The notes below the pieces were generated by a model that worked only from the letters and a program-made list of their open reading frames with translations, was not told the DNA's origin and made no database searches. Shown here piece by piece: positions 1,960 through 47,057 of a stretch of 64,000 nucleotides of DNA; position 1 is the first letter of the stretch; each line of letters starts with the position of its first letter. The DNA is taken from assembly GCF_025602895.1 (NCBI RefSeq), contig NW_026516307.1, forward strand, positions 62,001-126,000. The letters run 5' to 3'. Made by a program: the position numbers and the translations under genes. The stretch is from Polychytrium aggregatum (taxonomy: Eukaryota > Chytridiomycota > Chytridiomycetes > Polychytriales).

Positions 1960-2843
1960 CTACTGGACTCGTCTCTCGACCAAGACATCGACGCCGTCCT
2001 TGTAGCCCTGGGTGGCCGAGAAGATAATGCGGAGCTGGCTAGGGTCGAGCAGCTTGAGGTTATACCGCTGGAGCGTTCGGATAAGGAACACCTTGTTGTA
2101 GCCAAAGGAAGCAGTAGAAGCGAAAGTGTGTCAACAGTGGGTCAACCAGCGAGAGGTGCAAAGTGGGCACATGAATGTCCTTAGCAAATATCTCTGATGA
2201 TCGATCATGCCCGGCCAGCGCATACGTCGGCTTGGACAGATATTTGTACCAACGTCGCTGCTCTGCTTTCTCTCACCTTGGTTTCGATGTTGGCCATTTT
2301 CTGGCCGATGCAGTTCATCGGACCATCGCCAAATGGCAAGAAGCTGCCAGGCACTATCGGCTCGCTCCAGCGATCGGGGTTGAAGGTATTGGGATCCTTC
2401 CAGTACTTGGGGTTGCGGTGCAGGTGCGAGACAACCAAGACGACGTTGGTCTTGCGGTTCAAGTGACAGATGATCAAATCACGGGTGAGTCCTCGAAGCC
2501 CCCGGTCGCGGAGAGGCGAGCGAAGGGTTGATGCACATATCGGCAACAGCATATGACCCATATCCGTTCAGGATCCCTCGCTCAAAGGGCCGACAAGAGG
2601 GCGATAAAAAGACTCTGGCTCTGTATATCGAGAGCGCATCACATCAAAAGGCGAACGACGGTTCGAGCGATCCGCTGCACTTACCCCCTTCGCCACAGGA
2701 TAGCCCCGAATGTGTGTGTCGCGGCTGGCCACACGCGGGATACACTTTATTCAGAAAAAAAACGGGACAATATAGCCGTTTCCATGAACATGTAGTATGT
2801 GCTGTGCTTGCGTCAAGCAAAGCCACAAGAAATAAAAAACAGA

Positions 2844-5210
2844 TCACTTTGGCAGCCTCCGAGTGAAGACCACCGGTCGCTCTCCGGTCTCCACAATCGA
2901 CCTGCACACCGTGATCATGTTGCGCGCCGCATTGACGTCGCGATTCCACACTGTCCGGCAGCTGGGATTCTTGCAGCTCCTGACAAAGTGGGAATTCGCA
3001 ACACTGGGCGCATCGAGTCCTTCCAACCGAACTGGCTCCAGGCACTTGGAGCACACTTGCGAGGTGTTGAACTCGTTCGTCGAGGCCACCTTGACGCTTC
3101 CATGAGGGTGATTGGGACGGCGTCGGTGGTGCTCGAATTGCTCAAAGTACCGAGCAAACCGCTGCCTCCGAGGGCTGGATGCATAGCCCTTGCCTTGACG
3201 CCATGACGCATTGCCAAAGGCGATCACCACATCTGTCCGTATCGGGGCGTGCTTCAGGACGGCCTTGCACATCCTGTCGACGGCCACTTGGCGCCTCTTG
3301 TGGTCCGTGAAGCGATGGTGACGGGCCTTCTTGCCAAGGTGGAAGTCGAGCTGCACTCGCAGCTCCGGTCGCAGGACATGGGTGAGATGGACCTTGAAAG
3401 CCTCCGAGGACGACACCTTGGGCGAGGGGGTGGACGACATCCAGGTCTCGATGCTGAGTCGATACTTCATGGTGTTGTGCCACTTGGTGTTGGACGTATG
3501 GCCACACATGTGCTGGTAGTGGCCATTGGAGAATGAGACCACCTCGTCTTGGTGGCTCGGTGCTTGGATGACCGCCGTGAAGATGGAGCCGACTCCAGGA
3601 TCGATGCCAATCCAAGTGGTGCGATCGGGGTCTGGGTCGCCGATGTGGGCCTGGATACGCTGTTCGGCAGTCGGAGGAGGCTCGATGGTCCCGGTGCGAT
3701 CGGTTCGACGCACAAACTTGACGAGACCGATGGTGCATCCAATGCCATCGGTGCTGATCTCGTAGTTGAACAGCTTGTGATTGATATCCCGCTCTTGGAA
3801 GAGGAAACTACGCAGCTTGAAGCAACTGCGCCAGAGACGATCCTGGTTGTTGATGCCGTCATCACCTTCATCCTTGAGCTTGTCCCTGGTGAGTCCAAGA
3901 CGATGTTCGGTGTCAAGGAGATCCCAGAGAGTGGCCGTGTCAATCTTGATGTACTTGGCCTTCGCAGTGCACAGAGGGACCATCGTGCACACGGCCGGAG
4001 GAGTGTCAAGAGTGAGCTGCTTGAGTGCCCAGTTGATCCTGGCGGCCAGCTTGTTGATCTTGGACTTGGTGGTGCTGAGCTCAGACTTGGCCGTGGTGAA
4101 CCTCTTGTCGTCGGAGGGAATGCCTTGGGTAGTGAGCTTGTCCAGCTTGGCCTGGCGCTGCAGCTCGGTGACTCGGAGGGCGGGCATGTCACAGTCGATC
4201 CACTTGTGGACATTGTCGACCATCTTGTCTCGGGCGAGGATTCCCACATGGTGTGAGAGGCGATGGAGGGCCCGGAAGCGGTCCTGGTCGCTGCTGTACC
4301 GAAACTCGTCCAGGACGTGGCCAAACTCGGGATAGAGGAACTCGATATCGGCCTTGGGTGGAGTCTGCCCTGGTTTCTCGAAGAGCTCGAGACAGGCCTC
4401 GATGGCGTCGTGCTTATGCTTGTTGGCAGGGAAGACAGCAGCACAAAAGCGACGAAGAAGTCTCCAGTAGGCCAGGTCGAGGTGGGTGGTGCAGTTGGTG
4501 GCATAGGCATTGACAGCCAGTGTGAGAAGCTGACTGTGAGCACCATCAGGCAGACGAGGGGCCGGAGGCAGGTCTGCGTGCCGAGTGGTCTGGTAGTCGC
4601 GAAAGGAAGCGACCAGATGCTCGTTGTATTTCTCATTGTCCCCGGTCGGGGAGAGCGCACCGTCCTGGACAATCGTGATGCATTGGCGGATGAATGCAGG
4701 TGTGGACTTGGAGATGACGGGGACGGGAAGATCCTGCTCGATGCACCGGAGGATGTGCAGGTTGAGCAGCCTGGATGCCTCGAACTGGATCTGGGTCATG
4801 GCCTCGACGGTGGCCTGGATCTTGTCGCGGAGAGCGGGATTGAGACAACAGCCATCCATCGTCTGCTTGAAGCAGCTGAACTGAGGGGCCGATGACCTTC
4901 CATCCACGAGTGGGACGACAGAACTCTTGAGGGGCCGGTATTTTGGACACTTGCTGGTGTTGCAGCGTTCGTGATCGGTGCCATCGCACTGGCGACATCG
5001 CTTGACAGGACCAGATGAGGGACCAGGCTCGGTGGGATCGACATCCATTGGATCTGCAGAAGCAGTGGTGGTGAGCGACGGAGCAACAGACGACCAAGCA
5101 TGCGTGGGGTCAGAAGACGAACCAGAGACAGGCTCCGACTGTGACTTGGCTTTCTTGGGCCTGGGTGGCCGAGGCTGGCCATCACCGGTACCCTTGCGCT
5201 TCGGAGGCAT
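2844..5210 (-). CDS. Fanzor (eukaryotic TnpB-like RuvC nuclease), copy 1
   Basis: The predicted protein has 788 residues, starting at the ATG 5208-5210 (MPPKRK). An upstream in-frame TTG is not a credible start. It has a basic N-terminus, a Cys/His knuckle (CRQCDGTDHERCNTSKCP), a long helical region, a RuvC-I motif (WIGIDPGVG), a Cys2-Cys2 zinc ribbon (CSKC and CKNPSC) and the RuvC-III motif NRDVNAARN. Fanzors are RNA-guided DNA nucleases related to TnpB; here function is inferred from motifs. Compared with copies 2 and 3 it is nearly identical except for a block of substitutions around residues 390-535. A TATA-like ATTTATA on the plus strand at 5337-5343 lies upstream. Confidence 0.88.
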   Translation of the reverse strand: MPPKRKGTGDGQPRPPRPKKAKSQSEPVSGSSSDPTHAWSSVAPSLTTTASADPMDVDPTEPGPSSGPVKRCRQCDGTDHERCNTSKCPKYRPLKSSVVPLVDGRSSAPQFSCFKQTMDGCCLNPALRDKIQATVEAMTQIQFEASRLLNLHILRCIEQDLPVPVISKSTPAFIRQCITIVQDGALSPTGDNEKYNEHLVASFRDYQTTRHADLPPAPRLPDGAHSQLLTLAVNAYATNCTTHLDLAYWRLLRRFCAAVFPANKHKHDAIEACLELFEKPGQTPPKADIEFLYPEFGHVLDEFRYSSDQDRFRALHRLSHHVGILARDKMVDNVHKWIDCDMPALRVTELQRQAKLDKLTTQGIPSDDKRFTTAKSELSTTKSKINKLAARINWALKQLTLDTPPAVCTMVPLCTAKAKYIKIDTATLWDLLDTEHRLGLTRDKLKDEGDDGINNQDRLWRSCFKLRSFLFQERDINHKLFNYEISTDGIGCTIGLVKFVRRTDRTGTIEPPPTAEQRIQAHIGDPDPDRTTWIGIDPGVGSIFTAVIQAPSHQDEVVSFSNGHYQHMCGHTSNTKWHNTMKYRLSIETWMSSTPSPKVSSSEAFKVHLTHVLRPELRVQLDFHLGKKARHHRFTDHKRRQVAVDRMCKAVLKHAPIRTDVVIAFGNASWRQGKGYASSPRRQRFARYFEQFEHHRRRPNHPHGSVKVASTNEFNTSQVCSKCLEPVRLEGLDAPSVANSHFVRSCKNPSCRTVWNRDVNAARNMITVCRSIVETGERPVVFTRRLPK

Positions 5211-5336
5211 GAGGGCGGAGGATGCTGGATGCCTGCCAGTGGTACTGGTCAGAGCAGAGACTTTTTTATCGTACAATAGCGCGATGATCCGATCAAGGCG
5301 AGATGAGGGAAGAAAGCAGCAGAACGAAGGTGTGGC

Positions 5337-5343
5337 ATTTATA
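5337..5343 (-). promoter_or_regulatory. TATA box of Fanzor copy 1
   Basis: TATAAAT on the minus strand lies about 130 bp upstream of the Fanzor ATG and downstream of the transposase stop. The same box is found in the other two copies, which suggests that the nuclease has its own promoter. Confidence 0.5.
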
Positions 5344-5460
5344 CCCGAGAGCAGGAGCCCGTCTGCGCGGGCTGGTTGGGGAAGTGACCCTGTTCAAAAA
5401 TCGCCGAGAGGTTCAAGCCAGGGATGTGAACGTGAAAATGGCGGCTTGATTGGAGGGAAC

Positions 5461-6393
5461 TCAACCCCAGAAGCGCATCGCTCGCTCAATCAGCCGTGGG
5501 AAGACATCTGGAAGCACCCTCCGAACGGCAGACTCAAACAGGGTCACCATCCCGATCTTGAACCCCTCGGACGCATTCAGCGCTGCTGCCTTCCTGTACT
5601 GATGCTTCACAACCCCAAAGAAGTTCTCGATGGGATTGAAGTCGGGCGAGGCAGGTGGGGTGAAGATCACTGACCATCCTCGGCGCTCGATGCAGTCCAG
5701 GACAGCCATTGTCTTGTGCATGCTGACATTGTCCATCACAATCACAGAGTCGTCTGGGAAGCTCGCTCGCTCAAAGAACTCGACCATCGAGTGTGTCTTG
5801 AATGATGTGGGGATGTACATGCGATGCAGCACACCAGAGTGGTTGATGGCAAATGCAGCCGAGACAGACTTGTGTTTCATGTGATTGCGCTGGCGAAGCG
5901 GAGCACCCTTCGGTGAGTATCCGTAGAGAGGGAAAATGGATCTCCTGATCCCTGTCTCGTCGACAAAAACGAATCGCCGCGGGTCGATGGAGCGGACCTG
6001 GTCCCTGAACTGTGCCACTCGCTCATCCAGTCGCTTGGACTTGTAGAGGTGTGTTGCCCTCTTGTGTGAGAAGCCGGCTCGGTGGATGGCAGTGTGGCAG
6101 AGTGAGAGTGATACTTTCCTCTGGAGGATGGACTCGAGCTTGCATCGCAACACAGGACCAGTCTGGAACGGGTCCTGTTCAATCAGGGTGCGAATGACTG
6201 GACATGCCTGCTCGAAGAAAGTGGATCTGCGAGCTGGGACCCGGGATGGGTCATCCAGCTTGCATCCTCGGTGCCATCGATGGATGGTGCTCTTGGATAC
6301 ACTGAATATGGAGGCGACCTTACGCAGGCTATGGATGAGGGCGTAGCATCGCAATGCGGCGGTGCGAAAGTCGGATGTGTGGCGAATGGTCAT
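5461..6393 (-). CDS. DD34E transposase (Tc1/mariner-IS630 superfamily), copy 1
   Basis: The protein has 310 residues. An N-terminal helix-turn-helix (TSDFRTAALRCY and VASIFSVSKSTIHRWHRG) precedes a second DNA-binding segment and a DDE_3-type core. The catalytic triad is Asp145 (VDETG), Asp221 (VMDN) and Glu256 (FNPIENFFG). The last two are separated by 34 residues, the DD34E spacing typical of Tc1 and IS630 enzymes, which insert at TA. The translation is the same as copy 2. The gene lies upstream of the Fanzor in the same direction, with about 250 bp between stop and ATG. Confidence 0.92.
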   Translation of the reverse strand: MTIRHTSDFRTAALRCYALIHSLRKVASIFSVSKSTIHRWHRGCKLDDPSRVPARRSTFFEQACPVIRTLIEQDPFQTGPVLRCKLESILQRKVSLSLCHTAIHRAGFSHKRATHLYKSKRLDERVAQFRDQVRSIDPRRFVFVDETGIRRSIFPLYGYSPKGAPLRQRNHMKHKSVSAAFAINHSGVLHRMYIPTSFKTHSMVEFFERASFPDDSVIVMDNVSMHKTMAVLDCIERRGWSVIFTPPASPDFNPIENFFGVVKHQYRKAAALNASEGFKIGMVTLFESAVRRVLPDVFPRLIERAMRFWG

Positions 6394-8499
6394 GGCCAGC
6401 GCGCGATAACATTGGGTAACAAAATATTCGATGAATGGTCAAAAACCCGGGTGTCCCGTTTTTTATTGGATTGCGGGATAAGCGGCGCCGGTGGGTGGAG
6501 TCTCTGCGTCTCTTTGACGGCCATGTCGAGATACCTGTTGGCAAATAGACCGTACGTCGTCAGCGAGCCTTTCTGGTTGCTGGGCATCCGCCTGCTATCG
6601 GCTTACGTGAACTGCGAGAGCTGATCATAGCTTGGTTCCCCGTCGGGTCCAAGAATAGTGTCGATCTCCTTCTGCACGCGCTCGTAGACATGGCGATTCT
6701 TCATAAGCTCGACCAGTATAAAGGTGATCATGTTGGCCGTGGTCCTGGTCGAGGGATCGAGGCCGAGTGATTGTGGTCAGGATGTCATCGAAAGTGTGAT
6801 ATTGTCGAAAGTGTGATGTCAACTTGGCAGCGCCTTGCAAATGATAACCCACAGGGCCGGCACTATACTCACTCGTGTCCTGCAAGGAAGAAACCGTATA
6901 TTTCGTCCAGGATTTCCTCCTCGGTGAATTTCTGTTGAGTGACGGTCGGATCCAGTCAGTGGTTATAGCTGCGACACTGGAAGTGATTATCACCGAGCCG
7001 ACCGGTCACAGCACAGATCCCGCTGCTCCACACATCCTTACAGCATCTCCTTCCAGACCCATCGATGTGAGGCGGTCGAGCAAATCTTGATGCTCGTGCA
7101 GAATTGACGAGCTGCGACGTTCCCGGAGCGTGTCTCTGGCGATATCTTTGACATACTTGACATCCGCCTCGCAGGCCTTGACGCCGATGCCCATGACATC
7201 CCACAGCCACTCGGGGTACATGAATCGCTTGACGATGAGCTCGACGATGTGGCTGTAGGGCTTGAAGGCTTCCTCAAGGGCAGCCTTGTCATCGAGCCGA
7301 CGGGTCATTCCGAGGTCCTTGGAGTAGATGACATGGCCGCTATCTCGCAGGCGAACCAAGCCAGCAATGGGGGTCAGGCACCGACAAGCCACTATCACTG
7401 CACCGTCTCTGCGTTGCGGCAGGATTAAGCAAGATGCGTCGACTCACAGGATATCGAGCACTGCCGCGTTGGCGACAAGGTGCAGATTGACCCGGGACGA
7501 TGTCCCGAGCTTCTGGGAAGCACATCGGCGACTTGGTTTGCGCCTTCGGCCGTCGCTCTCAGTTGCGCGGGACCAAAGCATGGCTGAATGGCCTTTCGGT
7601 GCCGCTTCCAGAGATCCGCTTCGTAAATCAAAAACAAGGAATAGGAAGCGATTCCCCTGGCGATGGCGAGCAAACGCGGAGTATGCTCATGGGTGAGTTC
7701 CAGTTGATCGAAGGCGGCAAAGGGCTCGACCTGCATCGGACCATACGACGGACCATACGACGGACAGTAGCGATATTGGGGAGGGTTCTTTGGGCATCCA
7801 AAGTCTCCTCGAGCACGGCGAGCAGCTACGCCTCGACCCCCGGCAAATGCGAACCTGTGAGTGTTGTGGAATCGAGGAGGCCGCGCAAAAGCGCACTGGT
7901 CGCCGCCCTTGAGGATTTCCTTGAATTCGTCGACTTCGGACACAGAGATATCGCGGAGACCCATGATGGATGCCTGGGTAACAGGGCCATGTTGTTCCAC
8001 GAGATTGTAATAGAACATATGGAGAGTCTGCTCGGAGATGTGTCTGCGGCGAGCCGAGGACCGAGGTGGGTGTGAGTGGCGCTGGATAAGAGATACCAGG
8101 ATCCGACCCAGAGCAACGGGAACGATGACGCCGGGGCGCTGCAGGTCGGCTTCGGAAATGGGACTCATACTTGCTCACGGTGAAGAACTCGCCGACGATG
8201 GGCCAGCCCTTGGGTCCAGGGATCTGGTTTCGCTGGGTGCCAGGTGGCTCCCGGACGAGGTAGATGCCCGAGACAACAAGCACCGAGGCAGCGATTGCCA
8301 GCTGGGTGCTGTGGCTTTGGGCGAAGGACATGGCATCCTCGGCAATGGTACCGATGGTGAGCATTGCTGAGACGGCAGAGGGATGGGGCGAGACAAACGA
8401 CGGGACGAGCAGGCGGAGAGGACGACCAGGGTTGGTGGAATATATAGAGACATCGAGGCGGGCATGGGTCAGCGGGGCGGTGTTTTCCACTCTCCCCAG

Positions 8500-10022
8500 T
8501 CAGCGGGCGGACGGGTGGTTGAGGTCGTCGGACAGACATCCTGGGCGGTGGGCATGGAGGGACAATACCTCATATCCGACCACCGCCTGATTTGGACCAC
8601 TGTGAAGCTCACGAGGAGTGTGTACCCAAAAGCCGACAACTGACATTGGAACCTCAGACTCCTCGAGAACCCGGAGGTGTGGGAAACATACAAGAGCGCC
8701 ATTGAGCGAGTCAGCGGCCTAGTCTTAAACGAGATGGAGAGGCTTCTCCAGCCCATCCACGATGGCACCGAGATACCCATCAGCCAGGCGTACGCACAGC
8801 TTGCCATGAACCAAGCATGGGAAGCCATCAAGAGCACAATCAACACGGTGGCAGAAAGCGTCCCGGGCCGATACTCGGCCAAGTCGGTGGCGAAGGCGTT
8901 CAAGACCTTCGTCCGGCCTATGCTCGACTATGGACTGACCCTCGAAGTGCTCACGAAACAGCCAGCCGTGATACTCAGACGTGTAAGTGTATTGTTGGTG
9001 TCGCTGTGCTGGATCATAAGAAACTCATGCTATGGAGCGATGCATCTCGGATGCGGACTCATCACCCTGCCCAACCGCCTCAAACAGCTGGCCCTCCAGA
9101 ACCGAGCCGTCTGGGAAGACCGTCTGGACCACAACGACAAGATGGTCTCGATGGTGTTGAGATATTCCCGCATCCAGCCCAGTCTGATGGATGCATCCCT
9201 CGGCTCCCAGTTCTACCTCGACGAGTACTGGCGGCAGCTGATCGTGCTGAAAGAACAGTGCCAGCCGGACTACCCGATGAAGGAGCTGTTCAGGAACGGC
9301 TACTACCAGCTCACAGGACTACCAGTCAAGCTGCAGATCCACATCGATGACGCGCAAGGCTTCGACAGGTCAAAGGAACTGACCTCGGCCCGCACCGTGA
9401 CGAAGACCATGTCGGGACTGTGGGCCGAACGAGGGCCCAAGAGAGATCGATACTATCACAACATGATGGTAAGATGGACCCTCGGTGCCTTCCCCGGACA
9501 CCCGTATGGCCACTATCGGCTGTGTGTCTCCTGCACGAAGAGCCGAGGAGAGTTCGTCGCGATGTGCCGGACCCACACCCAGAGCTGCGTCGGAAGAGGC
9601 GGCTCGTGGCGACGGATAGTGGACGAGCTCAAGCTGCGGCACCCCGAGTGGCAAGAAAGCGGCCACGAAAAGGTCGGTCCGATCGATAAGCTCCTGGACC
9701 TGACGAACGTAGTGGGTTACTACGAGCTGGATGGCATGAGAATGTTCGACTGGCAAGACCCGGATGTCCATCTCCTGTGGCGAACACTCCGAAGAGTGTT
9801 CAAGACGCTGGTCATCGCCAAGGCGGGGTGGAAACCCCCCAGGCGATAGGCGGCATGGTCGAAGCAGAGCGAGAGACGAGGGCATATAGCTCTCATCGAA
9901 CGCAAACTGCCCATTAGGCCAATTAGGACTCGATTTTTCAATTTTTCTTTTTCCCAATGTACTGCTAGCGCCGACAAGGCCTTGATAGCTTTAAAGTGAA
10001 ATAGACCCCTCACTTGGCTTCC
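8500..10022 (+). mobile_element. Non-LTR retrotransposon (LINE) remnant A, internally deleted
   Basis: The plus strand encodes the end of an APE-type endonuclease (the ISDHRLIW motif near 8570-8600). After an in-frame stop comes the linker usually found between endonuclease and reverse transcriptase (WETYKSAIERV). It then jumps directly to the C-terminal RT thumb region (AKAFKTFVRPMLDYGL). The remaining frame to 9849 ends with a Cys/His motif region (LCVSCTKSRGEF, CRTHTQSC). The catalytic RT palm is missing, so this is a non-autonomous fossil. An AT-rich 3' tail follows to about 10022. Confidence 0.7.
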
Positions 10023-10042
10023 ACTTCCACCAGAACACATAC

Positions 10043-10985
10043 TGAAGCCAAGTGAGGGGTCTGTTTCACTTAAAAGCTATCAAGGCCTTGTCGGCGCTAG
10101 CAGTACATTGGGAAAAAGAAAAATTGAAAAATCGAGTCCTAATTGGCCTAATGGGCAGTCTGCGTCCGATGAGAGCCATAATCCTTCATCTCTCGCTCTG
10201 CTTCAGCCGTGTCGCCTATCGCCTGGGGGGGGGGTTTGCCCGCTTGGCGATGATCAGCGTCTTGAACACTCTTCGGAGAGTTCGCCACAGGGTATGGATA
10301 TCTGGGTCTTGCCAGTTGAATCTTCTCATGCCATCCAGCTCGTAGTAGCCAACTACGTTCGTCAGGTCCAGGAGCTTATCGATCGGACCGACCTTTTCGT
10401 GGCCGCTTTCTTGCCACTCGGGGTGCCGCAGCTTGAGTTCGTCTACCGTCCGTTGCCGCGAACCGCCTCTTCCGACGCAGCTCTGGGTGTGGCTTCAACA
10501 CATCGCAACGAACTCTCCTTGATCCGTCGTGCAGGTGACACAGTCGATAGTGGCCATACAGGCGCCTAGGAAAGATACCCAATATCTATCGTACCATCAT
10601 GGTGTGGTAGTATCGATCTCTCTTGGGCCCTCGCTCGGCCCATATTCTTGGCATGGTCGCCCTCACAGTGTGGGTCAGAGTCAGTTCCTTCGTTCGGTAG
10701 AAGCTTTGTGCATCTTCAACGTGGATCGGCATCTTGATAGATGGCCTGGGGATCTCGTAGTGACCGTCCCTGAACAGCTTCTTCATCGGGTAGTCTGGAT
10801 AACGCTGCTCTTTCAGCAGCACTAATTGGCTCCAGCGTGTGTCCTGATAGAACTGGGAGTCAAGGGATGCATCCATCAGGCTGGACCGGATGCGATAGCA
10901 TCTCAGTTCCAACGAGGCTATTTTGTCATTGTGGTTCAGACGGTCTTACCAGACGGCTCGATGCTAGAGAATCACTCCAGAGCTT
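10043..10985 (-). mobile_element. LINE remnant B, tail-to-tail with remnant A
   Basis: The minus strand carries a diverged copy of the 3' end of remnant A. The peptide MDASLDSQFYQ on this strand matches MDASLGSQFYL of A, and the two share GPKRDRYYH. The two tails meet across a ~20 bp spacer (10023-10042), giving an imperfect inverted repeat with arms of roughly 0.9 kb. Frameshifts and stops show that the copy is dead. Confidence 0.65.
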
Positions 10986-12365: not shown

Positions 12366-13103
12366 ATGCGCTTCAAGATCGACTCTCGCTGGCTGTCGGC
12401 TGCACTGGCCGTTCTCGTTGGGCTGCTCGTCGCCGTCCGAGCGGACCGCCTTCACAACCCTGGTCTGGGTTTCGGACCAAAGAGCGTCGTGATCCTCACT
12501 CCCCCGGCCATGCCAATCCCTTGGTCAATCTCGCCTTCGAGCTGGTCAGCCGTGGCCACCATGTTACCGTTGTCACGACCACTCGCTACAACGTCCCTGA
12601 GTATGCTCAGAACTCGACGATTCGCTTCCACACCTTCCAAGAGCCTCCCTCGTTCAGCGACAACATGGCCATGATCTCCAATCTCATCTCCCAGTCGTCG
12701 GACATGATCTCGAACGTCCTCAACACCGTCAAAGCGGTCCGCATGTTGGTCGAGACTTTGGGCTCCAGACCGCCATTCTGGAGCAAGGATTGGCGCTTGC
12801 AGAGTCTGGCCCAGTCGATCTCATCATCGGCGATGGTTTTGTCGGCCTTGTGAGTGCTACCGGCGCGATCATCATCATTGAATGCCCATGTGTGAGCTAG
12901 GTTGCAGGCGGGTGGCTGGGTTGCAACGAATCGATCCTGACGAGCTTCTGGTCTTTTGTCTGTTCCCAGGCAGCCGATGTGCTCAGCGAGCTCATCGGCG
13001 TTCCCTGCGTCATGCATTACAGGCAATCCAATAAAAAACGGGACACCCGGGTTTTTGACCATTCATCGAATATTTTGTTACCCAATGTTATCGCGCGCTG
13101 GCC

Positions 13104-14036
13104 ATGACCATTCGCCACACATCCGACTTTCGCACCGCCGCATTGCGATGCTACGCCCTCATCCATAGCCTGCGTAAGGTCGCCTCCATATTCAGTGTAT
13201 CCAAGAGCACCATCCATCGATGGCACCGAGGATGCAAGCTGGATGACCCATCCCGGGTCCCAGCTCGCAGATCCACTTTCTTCGAGCAGGCATGTCCAGT
13301 CATTCGCACCCTGATTGAACAGGACCCGTTCCAGACTGGTCCTGTGTTGCGATGCAAGCTCGAGTCCATCCTCCAGAGGAAAGTATCACTCTCACTCTGC
13401 CACACTGCCATCCACCGAGCCGGCTTCTCACACAAGAGGGCAACACACCTCTACAAGTCCAAGCGACTGGATGAGCGAGTGGCACAGTTCAGGGACCAGG
13501 TCCGCTCCATCGACCCGCGGCGATTCGTTTTTGTCGACGAGACAGGGATCAGGAGATCCATTTTCCCTCTCTACGGATACTCACCGAAGGGTGCTCCGCT
13601 TCGCCAGCGCAATCACATGAAACACAAGTCTGTCTCGGCTGCATTTGCCATCAACCACTCTGGTGTGCTGCATCGCATGTACATCCCCACATCATTCAAG
13701 ACACACTCGATGGTCGAGTTCTTTGAGCGAGCGAGCTTCCCAGACGACTCTGTGATTGTGATGGACAATGTCAGCATGCACAAGACAATGGCTGTCCTGG
13801 ACTGCATCGAGCGCCGAGGATGGTCAGTGATCTTCACCCCACCTGCCTCGCCCGACTTCAATCCCATCGAGAACTTCTTTGGGGTTGTGAAGCATCAGTA
13901 CAGGAAGGCAGCAGCGCTGAATGCGTCCGAGGGGTTCAAGATCGGGATGGTGACCCTGTTTGAGTCTGCCGTTCGGAGGGTGCTTCCAGATGTCTTCCCA
14001 CGGCTGATTGAGCGAGCGATGCGCTTCTGGGGTTGA
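13104..14036 (+). CDS. DD34E transposase, copy 2
   Basis: This is an intact 310-residue enzyme with the same translation as copy 1. It has an N-terminal helix-turn-helix for binding the ends. The catalytic residues are Asp145 in FVFVDETG, Asp221 in VIVMDNVSMHK and Glu256 in SPDFNPIENFFG, giving DD34E spacing. Tc1/mariner and IS630 transposases cut and paste at TA dinucleotides, in agreement with the TA flanks seen. The start is the first ATG after the left end, 84 bp inside the element. No intron is needed. Confidence 0.93.
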   Translation: MTIRHTSDFRTAALRCYALIHSLRKVASIFSVSKSTIHRWHRGCKLDDPSRVPARRSTFFEQACPVIRTLIEQDPFQTGPVLRCKLESILQRKVSLSLCHTAIHRAGFSHKRATHLYKSKRLDERVAQFRDQVRSIDPRRFVFVDETGIRRSIFPLYGYSPKGAPLRQRNHMKHKSVSAAFAINHSGVLHRMYIPTSFKTHSMVEFFERASFPDDSVIVMDNVSMHKTMAVLDCIERRGWSVIFTPPASPDFNPIENFFGVVKHQYRKAAALNASEGFKIGMVTLFESAVRRVLPDVFPRLIERAMRFWG

Positions 14037-14153
14037 GTTCCCTCCAATCAAGCCGCCATTTTCACGTTCACATCCCTGGCTTGAACCTCTCGGCGATTTT
14101 TGAACAGGGTCACTTCCCCAACCAGCCCGCGCAGACGGGCTCCTGCTCTCGGG

Positions 14154-14160
14154 TATAAAT
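14154..14160 (+). promoter_or_regulatory. TATA box of Fanzor copy 2
   Basis: TATAAAT lies 118 bp downstream of the transposase stop and about 130 bp upstream of the Fanzor ATG. It is conserved at the same place in all three copies (37380-37386 in copy 3). Confidence 0.5.
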
Positions 14161-14286
14161 GCCACACCTTCGTTCTGCTGCTTTCTTCCCTCATCTCGCC
14201 TTGATCGGATCATCGCGCTATTGTACGATAAAAAAGTCTCTGCTCTGACCAGTACCACTGGCAGGCATCCAGCATCCTCCGCCCTC

Positions 14287-16653
14287 ATGCCTCCGAAGCG
14301 CAAGGGTACCGGTGATGGCCAGCCTCGGCCACCCAGGCCCAAGAAAGCCAAGTCACAGTCGGAGCCTGTCTCTGGTTCGTCTTCTGACCCCACGCATGCT
14401 TGGTCGTCTGTTGCTCCGTCGCTCACCACCACTGCTTCTGCAGATCCAATGGATGTCGATCCCACCGAGCCTGGTCCCTCATCTGGTCCTGTCAAGCGAT
14501 GTCGCCAGTGCGATGGCACCGATCACGAACGCTGCAACACCAGCAAGTGTCCAAAATACCGGCCCCTCAAGAGTTCTGTCGTCCCACTCGTGGATGGAAG
14601 GTCATCGGCCCCTCAGTTCAGCTGCTTCAAGCAGACGATGGATGGCTGTTGTCTCAATCCCGCTCTCCGCGACAAGATCCAGGCCACCGTCGAGGCCATG
14701 ACCCAGATCCAGTTCGAGGCATCCAGGCTGCTCAACCTGCACATCCTCCGGTGCATCGAGCAGGATCTTCCCGTCCCCGTCATCTCCAAGTCCACACCTG
14801 CATTCATCCGCCAATGCATCACGATTGTCCAGGACGGTGCGCTCTCCCCGACCGGGGACAATGAGAAATACAACGAGCATCTGGTCGCTTCCTTTCGCGA
14901 CTACCAGACCACTCGGCACGCAGACCTGCCTCCGGCCCCTCGTCTGCCTGATGGTGCTCACAGTCAGCTTCTCACACTGGCTGTCAATGCCTATGCCACC
15001 AACTGCACCACCCACCTCGACCTGGCCTACTGGAGACTTCTTCGTCGCTTTTGTGCTGCTGTCTTCCCTGCCAACAAGCATAAGCACGACGCCATCGAGG
15101 CCTGTCTCGAGCTCTTCGAGAAACCAGGGCAGACTCCACCCAAGGCCGATATCGAGTTCCTCTATCCCGAGTTTGGCCACGTCCTGGACGAGTTTCGGTA
15201 CAGCAGCGACCAGGACCGCTTCCGGGCCCTCCATCGCCTCTCACACCATGTGGGAATCCTCGCCCGAGACAAGATGGTCGACAATGTCCACAAGTGGATC
15301 GACTGTGACATGCCCGCCCTCCGAGTCACCGAGCTGCAGCGCCAGGCCAAGCTGGACAAGCTCACTACCCAAGGCATTCCCTCCGACGACAAGAGGTTCA
15401 CCACGGCCAAGTCTGAGCTCGGCACCACCAAGTCCAAGATCAACAAGCTGGCATCCAGACTCAAGTGGGCACTCAAGCAGCTCGCCGTCGACACTCCTCC
15501 GGCCGTGTGCACGATGGTCCCTCTGTGCACTGCCACGGCCAAGTATGTCAAGATCGACACGGTCACTCTCTGGCAACTCCTTGACACCGAACATCGTCTT
15601 AGACTCACCAGGGACAAGCTCAAGGAAGAAGGTGAGGACGGCATCAACAACCAGGATCGTCTCTGGCGCAGTTGCTTCAAGCTGCGTAGTTTCCTCTTCC
15701 AAGAGCGGGACGTGAACAAGAAGCTGTTCAACTACGAGATCAGCACCGATGGCATTGGATGCACCATCGGCCTCGTCAAGTTTCTGCGTCGAACCAGGCG
15801 GACCGAGACCATCGAGCCTCCTCCGACTGCCGAGCAGTGTATCCAGGCCCACATCGGTGACCCAGACCCCAACCGCACCACTTGGATTGGCATCGATCCT
15901 GGAGTCGGCTCCATCTTCACGGCGGTCATCCAAGCACCGAGCCACCAAGACGAGGTGGTCTCATTCTCCAATGGCCACTACCAGCACATGTGTGGCCATA
16001 CGTCCAACACCAAGTGGCACAACACCATGAAGTATCGACTCAGCATCGAGACCTGGATGTCGTCCACCCCCTCGCCCAAGGTGTCGTCCTCGGAGGCTTT
16101 CAAGGTCCATCTCACCCATGTCCTGCGACCGGAGCTGCGAGTGCAGCTCGACTTCCACCTTGGCAAGAAGGCCCGTCACCATCGCTTCACAGGCCACAAG
16201 AGGCGCCAAGTGGCCGTCGACAGGATGTGCAAGTCCGTCCTGAAGCACGCCCCGATACGGACTGATGTGGTGATCGCCTTTGGCAATGCGTCATGGCGAC
16301 AGGGCAAGGGCTATGCATCCAGCCCTCGGAGGCAGCGGTTTGCTCGGTACTTTGAGCAATTCGAGCACCACCGACGCCGTCCCAATCACCATCATGGAAG
16401 CGTCAAGGTGGCCTCGACGAACGAGTTCAACACCTCGCAAGTGTGCTCCAAGTGCCTGGAGCCAGTTCGGTTGGAAGGACTCGATGCGCCCAGTGTTGCG
16501 AATTCCCACTTTGTCAGGAGCTGCAAGAATCCCAGCTGCCGGACAGTGTGGAATCGCGACGTCAATGCGGCGCGCAACATGATCACAGTATGCAGGTCGA
16601 TTGTGGAGATCGGAGAGCGACCGGCGGTCTTCACTCGGAGGCTGCCAAAGTGA
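14287..16653 (+). CDS. Fanzor (TnpB-like RuvC nuclease), copy 2
   Basis: The 788-residue protein starts at MPPKRK. Features in order: basic, NLS-like N-terminus (PPKRK, RPPRPKKAK), a Ser/Pro-rich linker, a Cys/His knuckle at about residues 70-90, and a long helical part. Then come RuvC-I Asp537 (WIGIDPGVG), Glu713 (STNEFNTSQ), zinc ribbon Cys720/Cys723 and Cys746/Cys751, and RuvC-III Asp758 (NRDVNAARN). The canonical RuvC-II position (VVIAFGNASW) has no glutamate. Published Fanzor work describes a relocated glutamate, and Glu713 is a candidate for it. The predicted role is guide-RNA-directed cleavage that helps to keep or spread the transposon. It is encoded downstream of, and in the same direction as, the transposase. 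Confidence 0.9.
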   Translation: MPPKRKGTGDGQPRPPRPKKAKSQSEPVSGSSSDPTHAWSSVAPSLTTTASADPMDVDPTEPGPSSGPVKRCRQCDGTDHERCNTSKCPKYRPLKSSVVPLVDGRSSAPQFSCFKQTMDGCCLNPALRDKIQATVEAMTQIQFEASRLLNLHILRCIEQDLPVPVISKSTPAFIRQCITIVQDGALSPTGDNEKYNEHLVASFRDYQTTRHADLPPAPRLPDGAHSQLLTLAVNAYATNCTTHLDLAYWRLLRRFCAAVFPANKHKHDAIEACLELFEKPGQTPPKADIEFLYPEFGHVLDEFRYSSDQDRFRALHRLSHHVGILARDKMVDNVHKWIDCDMPALRVTELQRQAKLDKLTTQGIPSDDKRFTTAKSELGTTKSKINKLASRLKWALKQLAVDTPPAVCTMVPLCTATAKYVKIDTVTLWQLLDTEHRLRLTRDKLKEEGEDGINNQDRLWRSCFKLRSFLFQERDVNKKLFNYEISTDGIGCTIGLVKFLRRTRRTETIEPPPTAEQCIQAHIGDPDPNRTTWIGIDPGVGSIFTAVIQAPSHQDEVVSFSNGHYQHMCGHTSNTKWHNTMKYRLSIETWMSSTPSPKVSSSEAFKVHLTHVLRPELRVQLDFHLGKKARHHRFTGHKRRQVAVDRMCKSVLKHAPIRTDVVIAFGNASWRQGKGYASSPRRQRFARYFEQFEHHRRRPNHHHGSVKVASTNEFNTSQVCSKCLEPVRLEGLDAPSVANSHFVRSCKNPSCRTVWNRDVNAARNMITVCRSIVEIGERPAVFTRRLPK

Positions 16654-16752
16654 TCTGTTTTATTTCTTGTGGCTTTGCTTGACGCAAGCACAGCACATAC
16701 TACCTGTTCATGGAAACGGCTATATTGTCCCGTTTTTTTTCTGAATAAAGTG
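16654..16752 (+). ncRNA. Candidate guide (omega) RNA scaffold at the right end
   Basis: The ~100 bp between the Fanzor stop and the right end is almost unchanged in all three copies, although it is not coding. It contains a hairpin (GCTTG-ACG-CAAGC, extended by TGTGGCTTT and AGCACA) and ends with the inverted-repeat core. In TnpB and Fanzor systems the guide RNA scaffold commonly overlaps the 3' end of the nuclease gene and the element's right end, with the guide read from flanking DNA. Here this is inference from position, conservation and fold. Confidence 0.35.
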
Positions 16753-18235
16753 TACACTGCCGTCAGCCAGAACTACTACGATCCGGCCAGCATTTTTGTC
16801 AACAGCCTCTATATCACTTCCTTTGATGGAGAGTTGAATCCAACGTTCTCGGTGCTCACTGCCGTCGTAAATGTACTCAGCAAGGTCGCTTCTGTCGGCC
16901 TGCAGAACCTGCGACGCAGCGAGCGCCGCAAGCTCTACCACACCGTCAAAGCAGAAATGGCCCAGCATATACCTGCGGTCAAAAAGCCGGCTCAGCCCGT
17001 TGTCAACCTCATCAGCAACACATGGGGATTCCATCCCGCACAGCTCGCTGTCCCGAGCGCACGCATGGCCGGTATCTGGGTTCCTGAGGCACAGAGCCTG
17101 GATGTTCAGCCCGACCTGAAGCACTGGCTCGACAACGCCAGCCGCCCTGTCGTCTACGTCTCGACCGGCACTGTCGCCCAGCCCTCAAACGAGACGCTGC
17201 TGGCATTCTACGAGGCATTCAGTGCTACAACCGAGTTCCAGACCTTGTGGTCGCTCAAGAAGGTGTTCCAGAACAACCTGAGGGAACTGCTCGGCGACCA
17301 GGAGTGGCCCGAACATGTCCGGATCGAGAGCTTCGTGCCGCAGCTTGCCGTGCTTGACCACCCCGCAGTCCAGATCTTTTTCACCCACGGCGGCTGGAAC
17401 AGCGTCTCCGAGGGTCTCTGGACGGGCACGCCGATGCTTGAAATGCCATTCTTTGGTGGGTATGCCAGCATTGGCACGGAGGCGATCTGAACAGATGGTG
17501 CGGGACCAACTGCATACGACGCCGTCGCTAACACTCCACTTCATCCATCACAGGCGACCAAACTTACAATGTGGCTCAAACGGTTCGTCTTGGCCTCGGC
17601 CTCATGATCGACAAGAACATCATGAGCTCATCCGACAAGGCTGCCACGATCCAGTTGATCCAGGACAAGCTCCACACCATCCTGCGCGACCCATCCTTCT
17701 CAAGCCGCTCCAAACACTTCCAAAAGACATTCCAGGTCATGGGCGGCGTCAAGAAGGGCGCTAGCATTGTTGAGGAGATCCTGGCCATCGGCGATACCAC
17801 TGCCTACAGCTTCCCCGACAACACCAACGCCGTCATGGCGGCCATGGCCATCCTCGGACTGACCGGTGCTGCCGTAACTTTCGGGATCTACCGACTGGGT
17901 GCCTGGGGACTCGGGCGACTGCTCAAGAAGCGCACGCCATCGGCCAAGGCCAAGGCCGAGTGAGACCGAGTGAAACCAAGTGAGACCGAGTGAAACCGAG
18001 TGAGGCTGAGCGGGACTGATTTGTCAAGTGCCTGAGCAGACCATCAAGTCCTGGCCGCCCTGGCTCTGGCATCTTGACATGCTATCAGCGAACATGGCCC
18101 AATACATCATCGGTTGCTCCTGAGATTGAGACTCGGTGCAATCGCCGGCCAGCTTGAGCGGCAGTCCTGCTGATCGCATCTTGCTGATCGATAGCTGCTG
18201 CGTGGAGTCGATCTGAGCAAGCACGGCACTGTCAG

Positions 18236-36379: not shown

Positions 36380-36463
36380 CAGGCGATCCAATATAAAACG
36401 GGACACCCGGGATTTTGACCATTCATCGAATATTTTGTTACCCAATGTTATCGCGCGCTGGCC

Positions 36464-37262
36464 ATGACCATTCGCCACACATCCGACTTTCGCACCGCCG
36501 CATTGCGATGCTACGCCCTCATCCATAGCCTGCGTAAGGTCGCCTCCATATTCAGTGTATCCAAGAGCACCATCCATCGATGGCACCGAGGATGCAAGCT
36601 GGATGACCCATCCCGGGTCCCAGCTCGCAGATCCACTTTCTTCGAGCAGGCATGTCCAGTCATTCGCACCCTGATTGAACAGGACCCGTTCCAGACTGGT
36701 CCTGTGCTGCGGTGCAAGCTCGAGTCCATCCTCCAGAGGAAAGTGTCGCTCTCACTCTGCCACACTGCCATCCACCGAGCAGGTCTCTCACACAAGAGGG
36801 CAACACACCTCTACAAGTCCAAGCGACTGGATGAGCGAGTGGCACAGTTCAGGGACCAGGCCCGCTCCATCGACCCGCGGCGATTCGTTTTTGTCGATGA
36901 GACAGGGATCAGGAGATCCATTTTCCCTCTTTACGGATACTCACCGAAGGGCGTCCCACTCCGTCAGCGCAATCACATGAAACACAAGTCTGTCTCGGCT
37001 GCATTTGCCATCAATCACTCTGGTGTGCTGCATCGAGCGCCGAGGATGGTCAGTGATCTTCACCCCACCTGCCTCGCCCGACTTCAATCCCATCGAGAAC
37101 TTCTTTGGGATTGTGAAGCATCAGTACAGGAAGGCGGCAGCGCTGAATGCGTCCGAGGGGTTCAAGATCGGGATGGTGACCCTGTTTGAGTCTGCCGTTC
37201 GGAGGGTGCTTCCAGATGTCTTCCCACGGCTGATTGAGCGAGCGATGCGCTTCTGGGGTTGA
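36464..37262 (+). pseudogene. Transposase copy 3, broken by a 134-bp deletion
   Basis: The N-terminal part is intact through the first catalytic Asp (VDETG) and AINHSGVLHR. The sequence then jumps to the segment that encodes ERRGWSVIF. The junction lies at a single CTGCATCG. In copy 2 this octamer occurs at both ends of the missing piece (13668-13675 and 13802-13809), so the loss fits a short direct-repeat deletion. It removes the second catalytic Asp and shifts the frame. The downstream DDE end survives in another frame (37005-37262). Confidence 0.93.
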
Positions 37263-37512
37263 GTTCCCTCCAATCAAGCCGCCATTTTCACGTTCACATC
37301 CCTGGCTTGAACCTCTCGGCGATTTTTGAACAGGGTCACTTCCCCAACCAGCCCGCAACGACGGGCTCCTGCTCTCGGGTATAAATGCCACACCTTCGTT
37401 CTGCTGCTTTCTTCCCTCATCTCGCCTTGATCGGATCATCGCGCTATTGTACGATAAAAAAGTCTCTGCTCTGACCAGTACCACTGGCAGGCATCCAGCA
37501 TTCTCTGCCCCC

Positions 37513-39876
37513 ATGCCTCCGAAGCGTAAGGGTACCGGTGATGGCCAGCCTCGGCCACCCAGGCCCAAGAAAGCCAAGTCACAGTCGGAGCCTGTCTCTG
37601 GTTCGTCTTCTGACCCCACGCATGCTTGGTCGTCTGTTGCTCCGTCGCTCACCACTGCTTCTGCAGATCCAATGGATGTCGATCCCACCGAGCCTGGTCC
37701 CTCATCTGGTCCTGTCAAGCGATGTCGCCAGTGCGATGGCACCGATCACGAACGCTGCAACACCAGCAAGTGTCCAAAATACCGGCCCCTCAAGAGTTCT
37801 GTCGTCCCACTCGTGGATGGAAGGTCATCTGCCCCTCAGTTCAGCTGCTTCAAGCAGACGATGGATGGCTGTTGTCTCAATCCCGCTCTCCGCGACAAGA
37901 TCCAGGCCACCGTCGAGGCCATGACCCAGATCCAGTTCGAGGCATCCAGGCTGCTCAACCTGCACATCCTCCGGTGCATCGAGCAGGATCTTCCCGTCCC
38001 CGTCATCTCCAAGGCCACCCCTGCTTTCATCCGCCAATGCTTCACGATTGTCGAGGCCGATGCCCTCTCGCCGACCGGGGACAATGAGAAATACAACGAG
38101 CATCTGGTCGCTTCCTTTCGCGACTACCAGACCACTCGGCACGCAGACCTGCCTCCGGCCCCTCGTCTGCCTGATGGTGCTCACAGTCAGCTTCTCACAC
38201 TGGCTGTCAATGCCTATGCCACCAACTGCACCACCCACCTCGACCTGGCCTACTGGAGACTTCTTCGTCGCTTTTGTGCTGCTGTCTTCCCTGCCAACAA
38301 GCATAAGCACGACGCCATCGAGGTCTGTCTCGAGCTCTTCGAGAAACCAGGGCAGACTCCACCCAAGGCCGATCTCGAGTTCCTCTATCCCGACTTTGGC
38401 CACATCCTGGACGAGTTTCGGTACAACAACGACCAGGACCGCTTCCGGGCCCTCCATCGCCTCTCACACCATGTGAGAATCCTCGCCCGGGACAAGATGG
38501 TCGACGATGTCCACAAGTGGATCGACTGTGACATGCCCGCCCTCCGAGTCACCGAGCTGCAGCGCCAGGCCAAGCTGGACAGGCTCACTACCCAAGGCAT
38601 TCCCTCCGACGACAAGAGGTTCACCACGGCCAAGTCTGAGCTCGGCACCACCAAGCCCAAGATCAACAAGCTGGCATCCAGACTCAAGTGGGCACTCAAG
38701 CAGCTCGCTCTCGACACTCCTCCGGCCGTGTGCACGATGGTCCCTCTGTGCACTGCCACGGCCAAGTATGTCAAGATCGACACGGTCACTCTCTGGCAAC
38801 TCCTTGACACCGAACATCGTCTTAGACTCACCAGGGACAAGCTCAAGGAAGAAGGTGAGGACGGCATCAACAACCAGGATCGTCTCTGGCGCAGTTGCTT
38901 CAAGCTGCGTAGTTTCCTCTTCCAAGAGCGGGACGTGAACAAGAAGCTGTTCAACTACGAGATCAGCACCGATGGCATTGGATGCACCATCGGCCTCGTC
39001 AAGTTTGTGCGTCGAACCAGGCGGACCGAGACCATCGAGCCTCCTCCGACTGCCGAGCAGCGCATCCAAGCCCACATCGGTGACCCAGACCCCAACAGGA
39101 CCACTTGGATTGGCATCGATCCTGGAGTCGGCTCCATCTTCACGGCGGTCATCCAAGCACCGAGCCACCAAGACGAGGTGGTCTCATTCTCCAATGGCCA
39201 CTACCAGCACATGTGTGGCCACAAGTCCAACACCAAGTGGCACAATATCATGAAGTATCGACTCAGCATCGAGACCTGGATGTCGACCACTCCCTCGCCC
39301 AAGGTGTCGTCCTCGGAGGCTTTCAAGGTCCATCTCACTCATGTCCTGCGACCGGAGCTGCGAGTGCAGCTCGACTTCCACCTTGGCAAGAAGGCCCGTC
39401 ACCATCGCTTCACGGACCACAAGAGGCGCCAAGTGGCCGTCGACAGGATGTGCAAGGCCGTCCTGAAGCACGCCCCGATACGGACCGATGTGGTGATCGC
39501 CTTTGGCAATGCGTCATGGCGTCAAGGCAAGGGCTATGCATCCAGCCCTCGGAGGCAGCGGTTTGCTCAGTACTTTGAGCAATTCGAGCACCACCGACGC
39601 CGTCCCAATCACCATCATGGAAGCGTCAAGGTAGTCTCGACGAACGAGTTCAACACCTCGCAAGTGTGCTCCAAGTGCCTGGAGCCAATTCGGTTGGAAG
39701 GACTCGATGCGCCCAGTGTTGCGAATTCCCACTTTGTCAGGAGCTGCAAGAATCCCAGCTGCCGGACAGTGTGGAATCGCGACGTCAATGCGGCGCGCAA
39801 CATGATCACAGTATGCAGGTCGATTGTGGAGATCGGAGAGCGACCGGCGGTCTTCACTCGGAGGCTGCCAAAGTGA
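37513..39876 (+). CDS. Fanzor, copy 3 (open frame in a transposase-dead element)
   Basis: The 787-residue frame is one Thr shorter than copy 2 near residue 45. RuvC-I (WIGIDPGVG), STNEFNTSQVCSKC, CKNPSC and NRDVNAARN are all kept. It shares the central block (residues ~390-535) with copy 2 but has its own cluster of changes around residues 170-370 (for example TPAFIRQCFTIVEADALSP). TATAAAT at 37380-37386 lies upstream. An open frame beside a dead transposase suggests recent loss of the transposase, trans-mobilisation, or a separate benefit from the nuclease. Confidence 0.88.
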   Translation: MPPKRKGTGDGQPRPPRPKKAKSQSEPVSGSSSDPTHAWSSVAPSLTTASADPMDVDPTEPGPSSGPVKRCRQCDGTDHERCNTSKCPKYRPLKSSVVPLVDGRSSAPQFSCFKQTMDGCCLNPALRDKIQATVEAMTQIQFEASRLLNLHILRCIEQDLPVPVISKATPAFIRQCFTIVEADALSPTGDNEKYNEHLVASFRDYQTTRHADLPPAPRLPDGAHSQLLTLAVNAYATNCTTHLDLAYWRLLRRFCAAVFPANKHKHDAIEVCLELFEKPGQTPPKADLEFLYPDFGHILDEFRYNNDQDRFRALHRLSHHVRILARDKMVDDVHKWIDCDMPALRVTELQRQAKLDRLTTQGIPSDDKRFTTAKSELGTTKPKINKLASRLKWALKQLALDTPPAVCTMVPLCTATAKYVKIDTVTLWQLLDTEHRLRLTRDKLKEEGEDGINNQDRLWRSCFKLRSFLFQERDVNKKLFNYEISTDGIGCTIGLVKFVRRTRRTETIEPPPTAEQRIQAHIGDPDPNRTTWIGIDPGVGSIFTAVIQAPSHQDEVVSFSNGHYQHMCGHKSNTKWHNIMKYRLSIETWMSTTPSPKVSSSEAFKVHLTHVLRPELRVQLDFHLGKKARHHRFTDHKRRQVAVDRMCKAVLKHAPIRTDVVIAFGNASWRQGKGYASSPRRQRFAQYFEQFEHHRRRPNHHHGSVKVVSTNEFNTSQVCSKCLEPIRLEGLDAPSVANSHFVRSCKNPSCRTVWNRDVNAARNMITVCRSIVEIGERPAVFTRRLPK

Positions 39877-39976
39877 TCTGTTTTATTTCTTGTGGCTTTG
39901 CTTGACGCAAGCACAGCACATACTACATGTTCATGGAAACGGCTATGTTGTCCCGTTTTTTTCTGAATAAAGTGTA

Positions 39977-40762
39977 CAGCATTACATAATACGAAGCGGG
40001 GACGTCCCGTTTTTTTTTTGAAACTAGTGCCTAATGCGCTCTGGATCCCGAAACACACATTTCTGGTCGTTTTGCGCTGTGAGCATCCGCAAATCAGAGT
40101 GGCGACTCGGCGGTGCTACGAAAAGATGCGTGGATTGTAGTCGGGCTGCTCCTCTACTCATCCAGGAGCAAAGTTCATCCAAGAGCTCCGTTTATTCAGG
40201 AGTACCGCTCATCCAGAAGTGCACTGTGGCTCTGGGCTCGTCAGGTTTGATGAACAGAGTACCAGATCCGTCGGTCGAGGGGAAGGCGCGACTCCGTAGC
40301 AACAGATCTTGCACTTTGGGCAGGAGTAAATTGGACATTGCCCTGTTTGAACTGAACATGTAGCTTGTGATGGCTTTGCTAGACCGAGCCATATGTGATG
40401 AAATCGATCCCTCGGCAGCCCCCAAGTCAAGACCCCGCATCGACGGCGCGATTCCACACTGTATGCCAGATGGATGTATATTCTGGACCGAGGAACAGGC
40501 GACACTCTTGGCCCATAGCCGAGTGTTCCGTTTCGTTTTACGAAGGGCGTATCCTTGTTCAAATGTGCTGCGTCTAGCCTTCGCCTCTCGGCGAGCCCAT
40601 GAAACCCGAGCAGGGAAGTGCATTCACTACCACAACCACAGCTGGGTGGCTGCCGCTTTCCAACGATGCTTGTCCGTCCTCGAGGTGGTGCACCGGTCAG
40701 GCCGCCGACGCCGCCGACACCGCCATAAACCAATGTCCATCAGACGGCTTGCGCTTGTTTGG
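39977..40762. mobile_element. Possible diverged relics of Fanzor-type elements
   Basis: Right beside copy 3, GTCCCGTTTTTTTTTTGAA followed by ACTAGTG and TA (40003-40032) resembles the right end of the element (GTCCCGTTTTTTTTCTGAA, AAGTG, TA). Around 40440-40480 the minus strand encodes HTVWNRAVDAGS, close to CRTVWNRDVNAAR of the Fanzor C-terminus. The rest of the stretch is not recognisable. These may be fragments of an older, related insertion. Confidence 0.4.
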
Positions 40763-46433: not shown

Positions 46434-46550
46434 GGTGAAAGCGAGACAGAGTCTAGAGTCAGAGAGCCAGGTAGCAGAAGGGAGTCACTGTCGAGGCAGG
46501 GGACTGTCGGGCAGAGCTGGATCCTTGGCGGCTGGAGGGAGAGGATCCGA

Positions 46551-46560
46551 CCATGTTATA
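46551..46560 (-). promoter_or_regulatory. TATA-like box of the left alkaline phosphatase gene
   Basis: TGATATATAA on the minus strand, about 120 bp upstream of the ATG. The mirror copy serves the right gene (48731-48740). Confidence 0.45.
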
Positions 46561-46954
46561 TATCAGCGGAGGCGGGGGGATGGGCCTCGACTTGGGGGGA
46601 AGTGATGCACATGCAAGGGGAGGGGCGTCTCGGATGGCCACTCGCGAGGAGGCTTGGGAGGAGCGTGCAAAGACAGGGTTTTGCTCCTTCTTTCTGTCCT
46701 TGGGCCGGGCGAAGTTCGATCCTCAAGCTTGTGGATTCAGAGGCTGGATGCACGCGCCGCCGGTGTTTTGGCGAGCCAGAGACAAGCCGAGCCGAGCTGT
46801 GTACAGAGGCAGGAGAGGCCTTGTGATGCAGCACGGGCATCGGGCTAAAGTACACAGCCAGATCGAGAGGGCCTGCGCGTTGAACAGAGGCGCATGGTGC
46901 GGATCATTGGGAGTGGGGATGATGTATTGTGACAGGTTGGGTGTTGCAGCTGGA

Positions 46955-47057
46955 GTGGATGGAGTGGATGTAGTGGATGTAGTGGACGGAATGGATGCTG
47001 CGGATGCTGCGGATGTTGTGGATGTTGTGGATGTTGTGGATGTTGTGGATGTTGTGC
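46955..47057. repeat. 9-bp type tandem repeat in the left arm
   Basis: TGGATGTAG, TGGATGCTG and TGGATGTTG units. The mirror copy is at 48234-48336. The open frames over it (Asp-Val-Val, His-Asn-Ile) are repeat artefacts. Confidence 0.85.

Follow-up and report, generated by a model that had tools for sequence, protein, structure and literature searches.

A Fanzor1-carrying Tc1/mariner transposon family in the chytrid Polychytrium aggregatum: a one-sided TTA rule and left-end junctions that may record homing

The 64,000-nucleotide stretch of the Polychytrium aggregatum genome analysed here (contig NW_026516307.1 of assembly GCF_025602895.1, positions 62,001 to 126,000 of the forward strand; hereafter the window) contains three copies of a transposon in which a DD34E transposase and a Fanzor lie in tandem. 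The element is a Tc1/mariner (IS630-Tc1-mariner) transposon carrying Fanzor1. Its insertion sites follow a one-sided TTA rule, some of them bear junctions with target-derived letters and microhomology on the left only, and the interiors of copies have changed in the assembly between alleles of the same site. We propose, with moderate confidence, a Fanzor-carrying Tc1/mariner whose RNA-guided cut of empty sites behind TTA would lead to the copying-in of the element. A wider idea, which we hold more tentatively and with slightly less than even credence, is that these junctions are fossils of a eukaryotic Fanzor homing its own transposon and rewriting its interiors as in a sexual population, the transposase pairing with different Fanzors that set the rule.

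The earlier note on this window, made from its letters without database searches, had described three copies with common ends, two of them complete for both genes, and this anatomy was borne out (Table 1). The transposase matches DDE_3 at 84.7 bits (cut-off 28.6), and 34 residues separate the last two of its catalytic residues D145, D221 and E256, so that its assignment as DD34E holds; in the 13020-16752 element a spacer of 250 bp separates it from the Fanzor. The 788-aa protein matches the TnpB/Fanzor zinc-finger domain PF07282 at 36.3 bits (cut-off 26.3). As a single sequence it matched no Fanzor structure in the structure-sequence search, and a search of 5.8 billion proteins returned one distant homologue only (P0001, 25% identity over 91%), with which it has in common two marks of the Fanzor1 RuvC site, the DPG motif (D537-P-G) and the relocated glutamate (E713), together with a C4 zinc finger (CX2C...C...C) and the RD after it (R757-D758). 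The two-row profile made of these two proteins matches SpuFz1 (8gkh, E 5.2e-07) and GtFz1 of Guillardia theta (9cer, E 0.0038), and D537, E713 and D758, counted on the profile alignment, align with D383, E541 and D606, the residues numbered as catalytic in SpuFz1 (PMC10432273). Because the profile matches solved Fanzor1s and the catalytic residues align, the long protein is a Fanzor1, in agreement with its first reading as a Fanzor/TnpB protein.

Copies 1 and 2 stand in inverted orientation to each other (arms 2836-6474 and 13023-16661, 99% complementary), and only these two carry both genes whole, because the transposase of copy 3 lacks ~134 bp, the second D among them, which leaves a 241-aa frame. 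The core AAAAAACGGGACA has 7 matches in the window at one mismatch or fewer, where shuffles expect 0.03, and its inverted presence at both ends gives the element terminal inverted repeats. TA flanks had been claimed for all three copies; they are found on both sides of copies 2 and 3, and in copy 1 the left TA is separated from the element by four letters derived from the target. Copy 2 splits a host UDP-glycosyltransferase gene, and the protein restored by joining the flanks matches UDPGT at 71.4 bits, in an alignment that begins 16 residues before the junction.

In the assembly the end core of 13 bases has 743 exact occurrences (376 + 367), against 2 (2 + 0) for the reversed control, and the phrase "three times in one locus", right for the window, thus understated a large dispersed family. 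Among 1265 first-look candidates for the Fanzor 57 were scored, and all 57 proved full length at 93-100% identity, 6 of them containing a stop. The 30 best matches were fetched, a sample biased to intact Fanzors, and in all 30 the Fanzor is preceded by the left end of the element and by some or all of the transposase, so that the two genes are linked in every fetched copy of this genome-wide search. The Fanzor frame reaches at least 787 aa in 26 of the 30, and 7 have an undamaged 310-aa transposase. Three transposase deletions recur in different combinations, and 15 of the copies have at least one of them. One of these three gaps is flanked by short direct repeats, and their interpretation as introns was rejected, given that they remove conserved DDE_3 sequence from the open 310-aa frame. 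Judged by the ratio of nonsynonymous to synonymous substitution (dN/dS), both genes are under purifying selection: the ratio is 0.28 for the Fanzor, equal in the 15 copies with and the 15 without transposase deletions, and 0.23 for the transposase (the 15 copies without them). Divergence among the sampled copies ranges from 1.4 to 5.4% (mean 4.0%), which speaks against the earlier description of the family as recently active, whereas purifying selection and the long Fanzor frames speak for it; that description was only partly right. Short derivatives (L045, L054, L116, L120) retain 97-102 bp at the left end of the element and 167-215 bp at its right end.

For the comparison of insertion sites, both ends of 83 rows were read, and removal of 10 allelic twins left 73 independent sites. 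These are not a random sample: they derive from the 30 best Fanzor matches, from core pairs on contigs C1-C26 (2 of 26 pairs dropped, the left end being absent from its predicted place) and from top transposase or end matches. With the left flank read at a fixed distance from the element and no letter demanded, TA stands at the fixed place in 66 of the 73 sites on the left, and in 72 on the right. T precedes the left TA in 65 of those 66 sites (G in the other one), and the letter before it is A or T in 54 of 66, where in the window at large T precedes 11% of TA. The mirror letter, an A after the right TA, occurs at 14 of 72 sites, slightly above the window background of 12%. The TTA rule is thus tied to the orientation of the element, because the right flank lacks the mirror, something that a palindromic TA alone does not explain. 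The T belongs to the target, since scarred sites (see below) keep TTA followed by uninterrupted target and the split UDP-glycosyltransferase frame needs it.

A second Fanzor, 37% identical to the window Fanzor over 513 residues, adjoins a DDE_3 match at 11 places, and such sister elements offer a comparison. Nine of their left ends were read, with end letters slightly different from those of the window family (CAGCCAATCC versus CAGGCAATCC), and two were set aside, having no TA and one flank in common with locus L008. In the other seven, T precedes TA at three, versus 65 of 66 in the window family (Fisher p 1.6e-4). The sister transposase of L008, a locus outside these seven sites, is 96.8% identical to that of the window; L008 was rejected as a clean sister site, being rearranged and without TA, with a Fanzor frame that stops early. 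Because the rule is one-sided, and elements with a different Fanzor follow it at only three of seven sites, these comparisons suggest that TTA is probably the target motif of the Fanzor. The 37%-identical Fanzor forms a second large family with subfamilies (L008, L121 on contig C96, ~70 loci), some copies of which adjoin a DDE_3 match.

Nine of the 73 sites carry a scar at the left end, in which the left TA is followed by 5-10 target letters and then by the element minus its first 2-5 letters. The scar letters repeat the target as it reads after the right TA, a match that shuffled pairing of sites and targets produced 0.21 times on average (maximum 3 in 20000). Moreover, all nine joins show microhomology of 2-6 bp, with a chance of ~7e-8 under a simple random-join model. 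No right-end scar was found in the 83 rows, in which the last letters are kept (9 to 0, sign test p 0.004); to be retained, a row had to have a right end with at most one or two deviating letters, and a missing right end was in no case the reason for dropping a pair. An empty site broken past TA is needed to account for the scar letters, because the excision gap of a filled copy has target only on its right. Scars would hence require a break in uninterrupted target a short way to the right of TA, the right flank serving as homologous anchor, and this pattern fits an RNA-guided cut behind a target-adjacent motif (TAM), with the element then copied in. The site L067/068 has an extra C-TA, which would resemble an excision footprint. 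At L074, a short element has landed immediately after the right end of a Fanzor copy, with the target letters TATTCTTCGCA on both sides as a longer scar-like duplication.

One-ended insertion by the transposase is the main rival for the scars. With the Fanzor as a passenger, an asymmetric transposase complex would prefer TTA on one side, and its one-ended insertions would have been closed on the left by microhomology repair. Such a process accounts for the exact right end and the error-prone left end, and purifying selection on both genes implies that the transposase has worked. We nevertheless regard it as rather unlikely, since TA is palindromic and the mirror letter is yet so much rarer than the T on the left, and since the TTA rule does not hold in the sister elements, whose left end is similar. 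Moreover, one-ended joining should leave longer target stretches too, whereas none of the 73 sites has a tail longer than the nine described.

We propose instead that the DD34E transposase would cut and paste the element at TA, and that the Fanzor would bind an RNA running from the right end of the element into host DNA, the guide being the right-flanking target. If the Fanzor requires (A/T)TTA in front of the target, it would cut only element-free sites, because this motif must precede the target. In a site emptied by excision, or in an empty sister or allele, the cut would lie between a few and some twenty letters beyond TTA. Repair would begin on the right, where the flank is the same as in the filled copy, and the element would be copied from its right end to its left end. 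Copying would usually end exactly, and sometimes microhomology would close the left end, leaving target letters behind. The Fanzor as maker of the break, the guide RNA and the copying-in of the element are all three what we infer, as is the joint action of both enzymes on one element suggested in the earlier note, which has gained comparative support from the TTA rule and the left-end scars.

The proposed guide RNA would come from the right end, where the last 140 letters plus TA are predicted to form three stems, the last of which pairs the right end with upstream letters (z -2.2). Diversity is lowest there (0.024 versus 0.058 at the left end). AATAAA is found at the right end in 33 of 38 copies and could, as a speculation, set the 3' end of the RNA inside the guide.

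Several observations weigh against the proposal. The ordinary site L146/147 has GGTA, and four further sites have an altered TA or an extra letter. The sister comparison amounts to seven sites, with the transposase identity taken from elsewhere, and the right ends differ between the two families. The candidate RNA folds modestly better than shuffles (z -0.6 to -2.2, shorter cuts giving -0.6 to -1.9), and synonymous diversity, low near the 3' end of the Fanzor gene, is lower still in two other parts of that gene. No empty site was found for the 43 joined targets among the 40 of 201 candidates that were scored, and the empty-site sequence is therefore a deduced one; half-matches in two contigs were seen for 12 of the 43, and the two top coordinate groups were rejected as empty alleles, being the filled sites' own left ends. 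Left-truncated copies, expected from interrupted copying, were not found among the few unpaired ends read: one long unpaired right end was rejected as such a copy, being a short derivative with a changed left core, and the eight others were read over 301 bases only.

The interiors of the copies tell of change at sites whose flanks have hardly moved. Three allelic pairs have right-flank mismatches of 0/1396, 1/1396 and 3/1399, and their interiors differ by 108, 109 and 123 letters as well as by a transposase deletion. L016 is a long element and L116 a short derivative with the same flanks and the same scar; likewise, the long copy L044 and the short derivative L045 occupy a single site. Independent insertion was rejected as the source of allelic differences where the twins share a scar (L010/L012, L015/L019, L016/L116). 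Linkage among the 30 copies decays to background over the first 100 bp (mean r2 0.094 below 100 bp, ~0.04 beyond), and four-gamete violations affect 56-75% of site pairs in every distance bin; in sequence at least, this looks like intense exchange between copies. Copies of a long interspersed nuclear element (LINE), taken as a linkage control, were too uniform, with a single informative site. LINE-like reverse transcriptase matches, almost identical and with open frames of 1284 aa, stand in rows within tens of kb on contigs C115, C366, C201 and C1.

Ordinary gene conversion between dispersed copies, exchanging interiors without any role for Fanzor or transposase, is a real if still doubtful possibility. 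The recurrence of internal deletions in different combinations in half of the fetched copies is in its favour, and so are four-gamete violations spread over all distances. In contrast, in the three allelic pairs with the closest flanks, interiors were replaced faster than flanks mutated, suggesting that breaks at the elements are frequent, and gene conversion leaves scars and TTA unexplained. It is improbable, in our view, that the interiors were scrambled in the assembly or polishing of a high-copy repeat, with ends and flanks real, although the drop of r2 around 100 bp has a scale resembling read length and the LINE control was poor. The loci read contain no N, and megabase contigs traverse many copies and near-identical LINE rows (six within 46 kb of C115), which points to a long-read assembly; moreover, the neighbouring copies 1 and 2 have an identical run of 2398 letters in common. 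Even if the interiors were an artefact, the TTA rule and the scars, which lie at the flanks, would be unaffected.

The coordinates of the features are collected in Table 1. Elsewhere in the window, a related end with one mismatch to the core lies at 40003-40015, 29 bp past copy 3, and marks a neighbouring short element family. A large inverted duplication (43777-47322 and 47969-51514, 99% identical, arms of ~3.5 kb, 646 bp apart) carries an alkaline phosphatase gene (right arm 104 bits), and a nested inverted repeat with falling identity (76-93%) at 9094-10969 is possibly an old palindrome.

Table 1. Positions in the window of the transposon copies, their genes and the adjoining target and candidate RNA features
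Feature	Position	Strand	Basis or detail
Copy 1, both genes intact, outermost left-tip letters lost	2743..6474	-	Fanzor 2844-5210, transposase 5461-6393
Left-end scar of copy 1: TTA, then target TCCC, then element	6475..6481	-	Target TATCCCGC recurs after right end
Left part of host UDP-glycosyltransferase gene split by copy 2	12901..13019	+	Frame restored on joining flanks at one TA
Left flank of copy 2, ATTA: TA target and preceding (A/T)T; candidate TAM	13016..13019	+	Rule over sites
Copy 2, complete element, both genes intact	13020..16752	+	3733 bp
Transposase, 310 aa, DDE_3, DD34E	13104..14036	+	Domain search, catalytic residues
Fanzor1, 788 aa; D537, E713, D758 align with SpuFz1 catalytic residues	14287..16653	+	
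Candidate guide-RNA scaffold: Fanzor frame end, 3' tail, right end, TA	16613..16754	+	Predicted fold, conservation
Right TA and right part of split UDP-glycosyltransferase gene	16753..17606	+	Joined protein
Candidate guide: host DNA after right TA	16755..16774	+	Presumed from family anatomy; length from other Fanzors
Copy 3, Fanzor intact, transposase broken by internal deletion	36380..39974	+	Fanzor 37513-39876 (787 aa), transposase frame 36464-37189

The Fanzor-mariner architecture was already known, because mariner elements with Fanzor1 were published in 2013: Bao and Jurka (PMC3627910) reported Fanzor1 in Tc/mariner elements (PGv-1, PUl-1 and others), including chimeric ones, and listed Fanzor1 families for Allomyces macrogynus, Spizellomyces and other fungi. 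Like PGv-1 and PUl-1, the present element combines a mariner transposase and Fanzor1 with TA duplications, and the chimeras of that paper, which share a transposase and differ in their 3' part, are a further likeness. Unlike PGv-1 and three relatives, described there as single-copy, the present family counts its end cores in hundreds. A TAM, scars and interior exchange do not figure in the accessible text of that account of Fanzor1 mariners.

For SpuFz1, the letters CA before the left TA proved to be part of the TAM CATA, and the enzyme cuts 16-21 letters past it (Saito et al. 2023, PMC10432273). Those elements and ours have in common a Fanzor1 and, seen as conserved letters before the left end, a TA-containing TAM, in ours a candidate one, and our short derivatives resemble the ghost loci of S. 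punctatus, which keep the right-end RNA region without the gene. The motif differs, CATA there versus the TTA predicted here, and in the available description no transposase lies between the repeats of the Spu elements, whereas the present element carries one. Right-end RNAs of Fanzor1 with a terminal inverted repeat and target duplication in the scaffold have been described (PMC10711439), and the fold predicted here likewise pairs the right end up to TA, the present RNA being a prediction only. As for bacterial TnpB, its retention by cutting of the empty site is established according to PMC11870625: the empty site is cut at TAM plus flank and recombination copies the element back, much as we propose here. 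The bacterial elements use a single-strand transposase, and for eukaryotes such homing is so far a hypothesis. Junctions of this kind were not found for Fanzor homing in the literature searched, the coverage of which was partial, and the junction evidence bearing on homing in a eukaryote is what this analysis adds.

This family gives many marked copies, a transposase in the same element and a predicted target motif for asking what Fanzors do for their host transposons. Moreover, there is a sister family to which the TTA rule does not apply, and the one-sided junction scars make a specific prediction that can be tested directly.

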